From Prochlorococcus sp. AG-409-P01 (lineage in GTDB: Bacteria; Cyanobacteriota; Cyanobacteriia; PCC-6307; Cyanobiaceae), in contig QCKM01000002.1 of assembly GCA_003215335.1 (NCBI GenBank), forward strand, positions 124,001 to 188,000: a stretch of DNA of 64,000 nucleotides, read 5' to 3'. The position numbers were made by a program, and so were the translations under genes. The notes below the pieces were generated by a model. The model saw nothing but the letters and a program-made list of their open reading frames with translations. It did not search any database and was not told the origin of the DNA. This document shows, one piece after another, positions 20,701 through 59,400 of the stretch (the stretch's first letter is position 1; the number at the start of each line of letters is the position of its first letter).

Positions 20701-21157
20701 CATTTGTTGGTTTTGAAGGCACATTGGCCCCATGATTTTTCTTGGGGGATTCTTTAGACTCAATTGATGACTTAGCTGAGGTAGCAGGTCGTCCTGAAGT
20801 AGCTGTTCCAGGCCTTTTAGGTGCAGAGGGCTTTGGTTTTACTTGAGGGGTTTGTTTTTTATCTATAGCTGCGTTTTCTTTTTGCTGTTTACTAGAATTT
20901 TCTTTGACGGAATTGGGCGTAGCTTTCTTGACAGAAAGAATTACTTTCTCAGGTTGGGCTTTTTTGCTTGTTGGTTGATCTGATTTCTTTTTTTTGATGA
21001 GAAGGTCACGTATTTGTCTTGCCTCTTCATCACTGATCGAACTGCTGTGGCTTTTTACCGCTATAGAAAGCTTCTTGGCGGCATCAAGCACATCCTTATT
21101 ATCCAGGGCTAAATCCCTGGATAATTCATAAACTCTGATTTTACCGCTGGTGGTCAT
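17798..21157 (-). CDS. infB: translation initiation factor IF-2
   Basis: IF-2 is the GTPase that places initiator tRNA on the 30S subunit and promotes subunit joining. The 1119-residue protein has an N-terminal IF2N domain (residues 1-50), then about 380 residues of low-complexity sequence rich in Pro, Arg, Lys, Ser and Gly, a second IF2N domain ([24 protein letters not shown]) and the G domain: GHVDHGKT near residue 619, [12 protein letters not shown] and SAIKG. Domains II to IV follow with normal length. Cyanobacterial IF-2 proteins commonly carry such a long linker. It is the last gene of rimP-nusA-ylxR-infB, 62 bp after ylxR. Confidence 0.98.
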
Positions 21158-56958: not shown

Positions 56959-58109
<1,151 letters not shown>

Positions 58110-58136
58110 TTATTAGTTGAAGTAAGTGGATAAATA

Positions 58137-58367
58137 TTATTGGAATTTAGTGCTAATAGATAGTTCTGGAATCACTCCTAAATTTAGGCCAGCCTGATTT
58201 GCGTCCTCACAAAGTTCCCGAGCCTCTTCATTAGGCAACTTGACTAGACCAGAGGCTAGGGCTTCCCAATGGTTCTCAGCGAAATGTGTCTGTAGCCAAA
58301 GGATTCCATGAATACTCATTGGTCGTAAATGGGTGCCTCTGTCTGTAGTGATTAAAGATATGTCCAT
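58137..58367 (-). CDS. small hypothetical protein upstream of glnB
   Basis: This 76-residue soluble frame starts MDISLITTDRGTHLRPMSIHGILWLQTHF and ends GVIPELSISTKF. It is mostly helical with an acidic middle (LPNEEARELCEDANQAGLNLG). I do not recognise a family with certainty, but the coding look and the position 39 bp ahead of glnB suggest a conserved picocyanobacterial gene. A hairpin with a T run (58369-58412) ends directly before its ATG, so its expression may depend on read-through or on a promoter inside the hairpin region. Confidence 0.65.
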   Translation of the reverse strand: MDISLITTDRGTHLRPMSIHGILWLQTHFAENHWEALASGLVKLPNEEARELCEDANQAGLNLGVIPELSISTKFQ

Positions 58368-58368
58368 G

Positions 58369-58412
58369 AAAAAGGCCCTTGTCTTGACCCATTAGGGGGG
58401 CAAACGAGGGCC
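58369..58412 (-). terminator. terminator/attenuator-like hairpin before the glnB-linked small gene
   Basis: On the minus strand GGCCCTCG (58412-58405) pairs with CAAGGGCC (58381-58374; one G-T pair), with an inner CCC/GGG helix, and is followed at once by TTTTT (58373-58369). The next base but one begins the ATG of the 76-residue gene. It is 24 nt after the DUF4278 gene's stop and so likely ends that transcript, while its abutment to the next start codon would suit attenuation. Confidence 0.6.
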
Positions 58413-58436
58413 GAGGTTGTCGCTTTTGCTACAGAT

Positions 58437-58655
58437 TTAATTGTTCATGCTGCGAGCTACCGCATCTTGACGATGATGATAAATGCTCCCGCGGTAGTGG
58501 AGTTCTACACTTTCGTTAACTGGCTGGGCCTCATGTTTTAAAGGCGATTCGTAACGATTTCCGCGATAAACATGCTCGAAGAGTGCACTGCTTGCCTCTT
58601 CATGTTCAGCGGGACTATAGGTAACTCCGCGATAGGTCCTTTGTTGAGTGGTCAT
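58437..58655 (-). CDS. DUF4278 family protein with YRG repeats
   Basis: The product has 72 residues and three copies of a YRGxxY motif: TYRGVTYS (near 7), VYRGNRYE (near 29) and HYRGSIYH (near 53), which is the mark of DUF4278. These short cyanobacterial proteins have no known role. The start is ATG at 58655. Upstream is the 337-bp palindrome-rich gap; downstream a terminator-like hairpin follows 24 nt after the stop. Confidence 0.78.
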   Translation of the reverse strand: MTTQQRTYRGVTYSPAEHEEASSALFEHVYRGNRYESPLKHEAQPVNESVELHYRGSIYHHRQDAVARSMNN

Positions 58656-58992
58656 GGGATTAACCTCGAAGGGAAGAGAGTTTCCTTGCTATTAAGAAAG
58701 GAGATTCGCCACCTCTAGGGAAGGAGCGTTGCTTCGCCTGGCGGGGGCTACTTCCGGCTTAATGGACCATCAAAATTTTGATGGTCGAGCTCAACGTTTT
58801 GTCCTTCAAGATAGTTCTAGACCAATACTGATGTTCATGGTGAACATTTTTAGAAAATTTTGTGAAAAGTTTCTAAAAAAACAAGCTTTTGTAGATCCTT
58901 TTTCGCTTTTGAATGGTTGGTGAGGGGCGCTTTTCTTTAGTTTGCTTCTGATGGTGGAGATTTAAGTTCTTGTAAGGAGCGCTTTTATCTTC
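58656..58992. other. gene-poor, palindrome-rich gap between DUF4278 gene and queF
   Basis: This 337-bp gap lies between divergent genes. It holds a perfect 22-bp palindrome (58765-58786), GTTCA-TGG-TGAAC (58833-58845) and a 10-bp inverted repeat TTTTTAGAAA/TTTCTAAAAA (58847-58856 and 58870-58879). A 53-codon frame from ATG 58762 to 58923 crosses these (a TTG at 58729 would add 11 codons), but its composition and the palindromes inside it argue against a protein; it cannot be fully excluded. The gap also must hold the promoters of both flanking genes, and a small RNA is possible. Confidence 0.45.
58765..58786. repeat. perfect 22-bp palindrome
   Basis: Two 11-base arms, GACCATCAAAA and its complement, meet with no spacer. 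As DNA this is a symmetric site such as a dimeric repressor would bind; as RNA it would form a 9-bp stem with an AATT loop. It lies 110 bp upstream of the DUF4278 start and 207 bp upstream of the queF start. No second copy was noticed in the window. Confidence 0.6.
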
Positions 58993-59400
58993 GTGAAAAA
59001 TGTTGACCCGCATACCCATTCTCCCCTGTATGGGGAAAGAGCTATCAATGAAGGTGCTCTGATCTGTTTCGATAACCCTAGCCCTAATCGGGTTTATGAG
59101 ATCTCAATTGATTTGCCTGAGTTCACCTGCCAGTGCCCTTTTTCTGGATATCCGGATTTCGCTGTATTGCGATTGTGTTATCAACCAGCGCTAAAGGTGG
59201 TGGAGCTTAAATCAATCAAGCTTTATGTGAATAGCTATAGGAATCTCACTATTTCTCATGAAGAAGCTGCGAATAGAATTCTTGATGATCTCATTTCAGT
59301 TTGTGAGCCAAATTGGATGCAACTTGAGGCAGATTTCAACCCAAGGGGCAATGTTCATACTGTTGTCAAAGTGAGTCATGGGATTAGAAAGCCGTGTTGA
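58993..59400 (+). CDS. queF: NADPH-dependent 7-cyano-7-deazaguanine reductase QueF
   Basis: QueF reduces preQ0 to preQ1 for the queuosine modification of tRNA. The 135-residue protein is the short, unimodular type. Cys48 in FTCQCPFSGYPDF is the expected nucleophile, Asp55 the paired acid, and ELKSIKLYVNSYRN (71-84) is the family NADPH/substrate motif. The start is GTG at 58993, with AAGGAG about 14 nt upstream. It converges on ccsB with 2 bp between the stops. I see no preQ1 riboswitch in the gap before it. Confidence 0.94.
   Translation: MKNVDPHTHSPLYGERAINEGALICFDNPSPNRVYEISIDLPEFTCQCPFSGYPDFAVLRLCYQPALKVVELKSIKLYVNSYRNLTISHEEAANRILDDLISVCEPNWMQLEADFNPRGNVHTVVKVSHGIRKPC

Follow-up and report, generated by a model that had tools for sequence, protein, structure and literature searches.

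The question raised by this locus is what a perfect 22-bp palindrome might be doing in the gap between two divergent genes. The gap, located in the window (the whole stretch of 64 kb of DNA that was analyzed), spans 337 bp from the start of a DUF4278 gene (58655, minus strand) to the start of queF (58993, plus strand). The palindrome, GACCATCAAAATTTTGATGGTC at 58765-58786, is made of the arms GACCATCAAAA (58765-58775) and TTTTGATGGTC (58776-58786), which are 100% complementary and have a spacer of 0. According to the original prediction, such a spacer-free palindrome was too long to be due to chance and was accompanied by two further inverted repeats, and our analysis bears this out. The palindrome is exact, it is the only spacerless one with arms of at least 9 in the 64 kb, and those with arms of at least 11 are expected at a mean of 0.025 per 64 kb based on 40 order-1 Markov simulations; the two additional repeats are present at 58832-58846 and at 58847-58861 / 58865-58879. 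With up to 3 mismatches allowed, the palindrome has a single match both in the window and in the genome. The window contains one other inverted repeat whose arms are perfect over at least 11 and whose loop is no longer than 6, ATTATCCAGGG-CTAAAT-CCCTGGATAAT at 21098-21125. As for the function of the gap, it is very probably the control region of the minus-strand DUF4278 gene, in which a conserved promoter palindrome is combined with a type 1 glutamine riboswitch that would set translation.

The palindrome lies within a minus-strand match to RF01739, the type 1 glutamine riboswitch or glnA RNA, which extends from 58798 to 58723 and scores 38.4 bits against a gathering score of 35. When aligned to this family, the P1, P2, and P3 helices are all present around the conserved CGGAAGUA / GAAG core, with one P2 pair marked as non-standard at each end of P2. 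Based on the family alignment and on that of the relatives, P1 is formed by 58796-58792 and 58731-58727, the base of P2 by 58790-58788 and 58759-58757, and P3 by 58748-58746 and 58738-58736, while the core CGGAAGUAG within the match occupies 58756-58748 (all minus strand). The fifth P1 pair is G-C here and C-G in the Rfam consensus, which represents a compensatory change. P1 is also extended, as GAAGGA (58802-58807) on its 5' strand can pair with UCCUUC (58725-58720) on its 3' strand, and a compensatory change is seen in three of these six pairs, a count that was obtained twice, independently. The aptamer has the position of a leader, as it precedes the DUF4278 gene (58655-58437), with PII further on. 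No match to the glutamine-II family (RF01704) was found among matches up to an E-value of 5 in 58400-59100, and none of the family matches on the plus strand of the locus reached its cut-off. We infer that the locus is a type 1 glutamine riboswitch leader, of a known aptamer class, which is predicted to bind glutamine.

Conservation of this aptamer extends well past the genome under study. RF01739 was detected in 29 of 60 relatives at an E-value of 0.001 (21 of them above the cut-off); among 400 family genomes, an E-value of 0.1 gave matches in 160 (49 above the cut-off). Leaders of the window's type amounted to 54 distinct ones when a strict pattern was used and to 71 with a looser pattern; 65 of these 71 carry the promoter palindrome, and 63 of the 65 palindrome-bearing sequences, all distinct, were aligned. 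Standard pairs account for 99.1% of cells in the 63 aligned sequences. When the alignment was compared to shuffles, which related sequences can exceed, six pairs were changed on both sides against a shuffled mean of 3.5 (1 of 500 shuffles was as high), and the covariation score was 0.202 against a shuffled mean of 0.084 (0 of 500 as high) and against 0.056 at most for slid structures; the number of further pair types (13, with 12.0 in shuffles, 128 of 500) was the one of five whole-structure measures that did not exceed them. All three pairs at the base of P2 show a compensatory change among the 63 sequences, and P1 proper is invariant in the same set, partly because the sequences were gathered by their P1 letters. 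With R1, an aptamer model built from the 63, a match at an E-value of 0.01 was obtained for 99 of 400 family genomes, training sequences counted. A DUF4278 gene start was recognized after 50 of the 54 leaders. The 39 named loci found by the strict pattern include those of Synechococcus WH7803 (L125) and WH5701 (L130) and of Prochlorococcus AG-409-J16 (L128), and two with titles (Zunongwangia, L118, and an actinobacterium, L120) that look like mislabelled or contaminated records. Phage records yielded no match to the 556-bp region, and viral contigs yielded none by either the aptamer pattern or the DUF4278 protein.

Within the aptamer, the 22-bp palindrome corresponds to the apical part of the P2 hairpin, and on the minus strand its predicted fold consists of 9 bp and an AAUU loop. 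The letters of this stretch differ from those of the window in every relative compared. The ability to fold, on the other hand, is mostly maintained: in 53 of the 54 sequences (one with ambiguous bases was left out), the apical P2 stretch had a mean z-score of -1.63 against its own shuffles, with z below -1 in 41 of 53, whereas an upstream control stretch had a mean of -0.43, with z below -1 in 14 of 53. Folding was not clearly better than in shuffles for 12 of the 53, and the window's value of -5.2 is the lowest of all 53. Because the letters vary and the stretch mostly folds better than shuffles, the hairpin is what is kept, and the perfect palindrome is the local extreme of such a hairpin; it very probably belongs to the hairpins of a type 1 glutamine riboswitch and is not an operator. 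The suggestion of a structured small RNA was therefore correct with regard to structured RNA, and failed with regard to a separate small RNA, as we are dealing with a cis-acting riboswitch leader instead. Lack of conservation in relatives had been set beforehand as the result that would disprove the prediction; it holds for the letters of the palindrome, but the structure is kept, and a rule based on conservation of letters would have discarded a real feature.

The palindrome being perfect, spacerless, and rare, one could still argue for a DNA operator controlling DUF4278 or queF, its place in an aptamer-like RNA being secondary. We see hardly any chance for such a reading, and reject it, because the letters of the palindrome are not kept among the relatives compared; furthermore, a second genomic copy is absent and, given the inferred start site, the palindrome would reside inside the transcript. 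That the aptamer is a decayed copy, which has lost control of its gene, appears highly improbable as well. Such a reading might draw on an RF01739 score that is barely over the cut-off, and on the DUF4278 gene of L182/L224, which is preceded by the promoter palindrome without an aptamer recognized by Rfam. All 17 modelled pairs, however, can form in the window sequence, which also keeps every position that is invariant in the alignment and scores 86.4 bits with the lineage's own model (the window sequence being in its training set), and the RF01739 score is low because this lineage departs from the Rfam consensus. There is also a weak but full-length match on the minus strand, at 58877-58797, to Yfr10 (RF02362; E-value of 1.1), which would make the region a free small RNA. 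We give virtually no credit to this candidate and rejected it, as its 21.9 bits are far under the gathering score of 43, no match to the family was found in the organism's own genome at an E-value of 1, the consensus stretch ACUCCUCACACAC reads ACUUUUCACAAA in the window, and the supporting hairpin is unconserved among relatives.

The second inverted repeat of the gap is a different matter. This is the promoter palindrome, TGTTCACCATGAACA (plus-strand letters TGTTCATGGTGAACA) at 58832-58846 on the minus strand, which was read from the sequence and was not listed as such by the inverted-repeat search. Its pattern, TGTTCRNNNYGAACA, is exact in 45 of 54 relatives, and has one mismatch in five and two in four, with G2, T3, C5, G11, and C14 invariant in the 54 sequences. 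A putative -10-like box, TAGAAC in the window (58814-58819, minus), is suggested by the presence of TAnnnn at the same place in 53 of 54 relatives; it is separated from the palindrome by 12 nt in 40 of 53, and from the GAAGG of the P1 extension by mostly 6-7 nt (6 nt in the window). Based on this spacing, transcription would start at the first G of GAAGG, at position 58807 of the minus strand. Because no sigma-70-type promoter was found by a consensus scan of 57700-59100, it is conservation that argues for a promoter here. The halves of the palindrome show no covariation (312 standard pairs and 311.7 in shuffles), and since their distance to the -10-like box is fixed, the repeat is probably a DNA operator centered near -32 and a candidate site for a regulator. 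The box recognized by NtcA has the consensus GTAN8TAC, and no such box occurs within 260 nt upstream of the DUF4278 start in the window's leader (L153). We presume the 5-5-5 layout of the palindrome to be similar to that of LysR-type sites.

The gene most likely to be served by these elements is DUF4278, which encodes 72 aa (58437-58655, minus; Pfam PF14105, 41.1 bits, cut-off of 25.3). A 76-aa protein (58137-58367, minus), with no Pfam or NCBIfam matches, is possibly encoded by the next gene of the unit and was matched by tblastn in 72 of 92 loci, and glnB, encoding the nitrogen regulatory protein PII (57759-58097, minus; Pfam PF00543), possibly belongs to the same unit and was matched by tblastn in 53 of 92, counts in which same-genome repeats and loci with short flanks are included. 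The 76-aa gene is also found beside DUF4278 at loci that lack queF and glnB as adjacent genes. The terminator-like site between DUF4278 and the next gene (58390-58373, minus) is at chance level. Being the divergent neighbor, with a homologue in 56 of the same 92 loci, the plus-strand queF could also be proposed as the target, which we regard as extremely improbable given that no plus-strand family match at this locus reached its cut-off. In addition, three loci (L112, with a sequence equal to that of L078, L114, and L143) keep both aptamer and promoter palindrome before DUF4278, with queF not found within ~3 kb on either side, which indicates that the two elements go with DUF4278. Thus, the operator proposed for DUF4278 or queF was misplaced on the 22-bp palindrome, and probably exists, for DUF4278, in the second inverted repeat. 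If the latter were instead a hairpin in the RNA of some longer transcript, one could explain why 12 of 54 sequences, in which the DNA symmetry is broken, retain their sixth pair as G-U; the absence of covariation and the position of the repeat upstream of the -10-like box, at a fixed spacing, make this improbable, and a DNA operator remains our preferred reading. The own genome's second DUF4278 leader (L154), as well as L229 and L233, carry neither the palindrome, nor an NtcA box, nor a recognized riboswitch.

A search of the own genome with TGTTCRNNNYGAACA returned one exact site, plus three with a single mismatch that fall inside reading frames or at their start; allowing up to 2 mismatches gave 22 matches over the two strands vs 19 for the reversed pattern, and no regulon for the palindrome emerged from this genome. 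The exact palindrome occurs in 33 of 151 genomes. Among 30 exact-match loci examined, 14 precede a DUF4278 frame (the aptamer core is present in 13 and absent from L182), and 15 are elsewhere, six of them falling within one recurring coding-like stretch, so the exact pattern alone is no proof of function. L190 is a possible DUF4278 leader whose aptamer-like letters were seen by eye and are unrecognized by Rfam. In L182 / L224 (G013:C7), DUF4278 is accompanied by the promoter palindrome and the -10-like box, the aptamer is unrecognized, and another long inverted repeat is found in the leader. No report of the promoter palindrome was found in the literature searched; the primary type 1 riboswitch paper, which was outside that search, may describe it or the P1 extension. 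The third inverted repeat, TTTTTAGAAAATTTT / AAAAGTTTCTAAAAA (58847-58861 / 58865-58879), is A+T-rich and 93% complementary; it has 14 matched positions here, whereas the runner-up among 54 upstream regions has 8, and it is thus seen in this genome alone (1 of 54).

Between the aptamer and the gene, two elements appear relevant to how the riboswitch might work, namely CCUAGAGG (58712-58719, minus), which is predicted to pair with the Shine-Dalgarno stretch, and CCCUUCGAGG (58664-58673, minus), which includes the Shine-Dalgarno GAGG 8 nt before the ATG. Among the 49 of 54 leaders counted, GAAG or GAGG lies within 16 nt past the P1 extension in 46, and CUUCGAGG is present in 42. Because the elements near the Shine-Dalgarno site hardly vary, covariation is uninformative there, and their pairing energies were above those of shuffles in both alternatives. 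Ensembles with P1 either forced or blocked were then compared in 46 of the 54 leaders (left out were four leaders without a recognized gene start, one with ambiguous bases, and three without a Shine-Dalgarno match), using energy models that leave out both the ligand and co-transcriptional folding. Pairing of the GAAG/GAGG element with the CUUC that precedes the Shine-Dalgarno GAGG was 0.85 with P1 formed and 0.38 with P1 blocked, whereas pairing of the 5' GAAGG at that same CUUC was 0.47 with P1 blocked and 0.00 with P1 formed. The Shine-Dalgarno site was open at a mean of 0.28 with P1 formed vs 0.40 with P1 blocked in the 46 leaders, and at 0.33 vs 0.50 in the window; forming P1 reduced openness by more than 0.1 in 21 of the 46 leaders and raised it in one. 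The direction of folding in these models suggests an OFF switch in the presence of glutamine; in view of what the models leave out, we consider translational control of DUF4278 likely and do not assign a direction.

Taken together, a mechanism can be envisioned in which transcription would start near 58807, with the -35 region under the 15-bp palindrome at 58846-58832, where a regulator is probably bound. The 5' end of the mRNA would fold into P1 with its lineage-specific extension, the variable P2 that holds the 22-bp palindrome, and P3 together with the conserved core; binding of glutamine would stabilize P1 and its extension, stabilized P1 would alter the pairing partners around the Shine-Dalgarno site, and this altered pairing would in turn set translation of DUF4278. 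It is tempting to take this one step further, and to see in this picocyanobacterial subclass a dual sensor with inverted logic, where a dedicated regulator would act through TGTTCRNNNYGAACA at what is essentially a single promoter in each genome, while the P1-extended riboswitch would turn DUF4278 off with glutamine, formation of P1 freeing the element that covers the Shine-Dalgarno site, but we consider this version rather unlikely. The locus would equip a DUF4278 gene, which neighbors glnB (PII) in many genomes of this set, with both a conserved promoter site and a sensor for glutamine, and our analysis, besides correcting the operator reading of the palindrome, names the RNA and DNA positions for testing.

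Some of these features are already in print: three publications (PMC2864571, PMC6316151, PMC11288750) cover this class of aptamer, the genes with which it is associated (DUF4278, PII, and PMT1479), and the activation exerted by glutamine. A glnA RNA before PMT1479 of Prochlorococcus was published in 2010, with PII and PMT1479 among the associated genes and PMT1479 reported to be repressed more than any other gene under nitrogen starvation (PMC2864571); this repression could be explained by the promoter site as well. The window shares with the PMT1479 RNA the aptamer family, the helices, and the core, along with a DUF4278-type downstream gene and PII nearby, a likeness in the kind of gene. Compared to known type 1 members, the window differs for the P1 extended by GAAGGA/UCCUUC, for a conserved palindrome in the promoter in place of an NtcA box, and for a different element opposite the Shine-Dalgarno site. 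In the gifB leader of Synechocystis, a riboswitch also precedes a DUF4278 protein, and glutamine is reported to activate translation of IF17 through this type 1 riboswitch, published type 1 members being ON switches (PMC6316151, PMC11288750); the gifB leader is reported as ON with glutamine, while folding of the window's leader would point to OFF. The DUF4278 protein is a relative of the N-terminal part of IF17, the glutamine synthetase inactivating factor. IF17 of gifB is, however, longer than the window protein, with DUF4278 as its N-terminal part only, and earlier findings, as reviewed, argue against streamlined lineages such as these using inactivating factors to control glutamine synthetase (PMC6316151).

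The glutamine-II riboswitch (Downstream-peptide, RF01704) similarly precedes DUF4278 genes of relatives, with 9 such cases among 14 DUF4278 loci scanned. Its aptamer is different from that of the window, and a GTAN8TAC box is found beside it in 8 of 8 readable leaders of this kind (L234 left out), whereas the window has none. Elsewhere, downstream of the type 1 aptamer core, arginine-rich frames of 37-39 aa (e.g. MSITTARQLARQAEEARRAAKQ...) were found at other loci (L021, L028, L044-L046, L048-L057, L061, L063, L079, L109, and L111), for a total of 20 distinct proteins. These were picked by protein start and length and not by the presence of a box, and an NtcA-like GTAN8TAC box is nevertheless found within 75 nt upstream of the core in 20 of 20 loci. 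Two of these proteins were checked and had no Pfam matches; our guess is that they could be further small regulators of nitrogen assimilation. The own genome also has matches to the glutamine-II aptamer at two loci, L151 and L152 (G000:C2:231734-231788, minus, and 256695-256750, plus), with 35.3 bits (above the cut-off) and 23.4 bits (below it), respectively. Lastly, several of the type 2 DUF4278 leaders L219, L220, L222, L227, L228, L230, L231, and L232 seem, by eye, to have a GTAN8AAC-like site further upstream, with the spacing of a promoter activated by NtcA.
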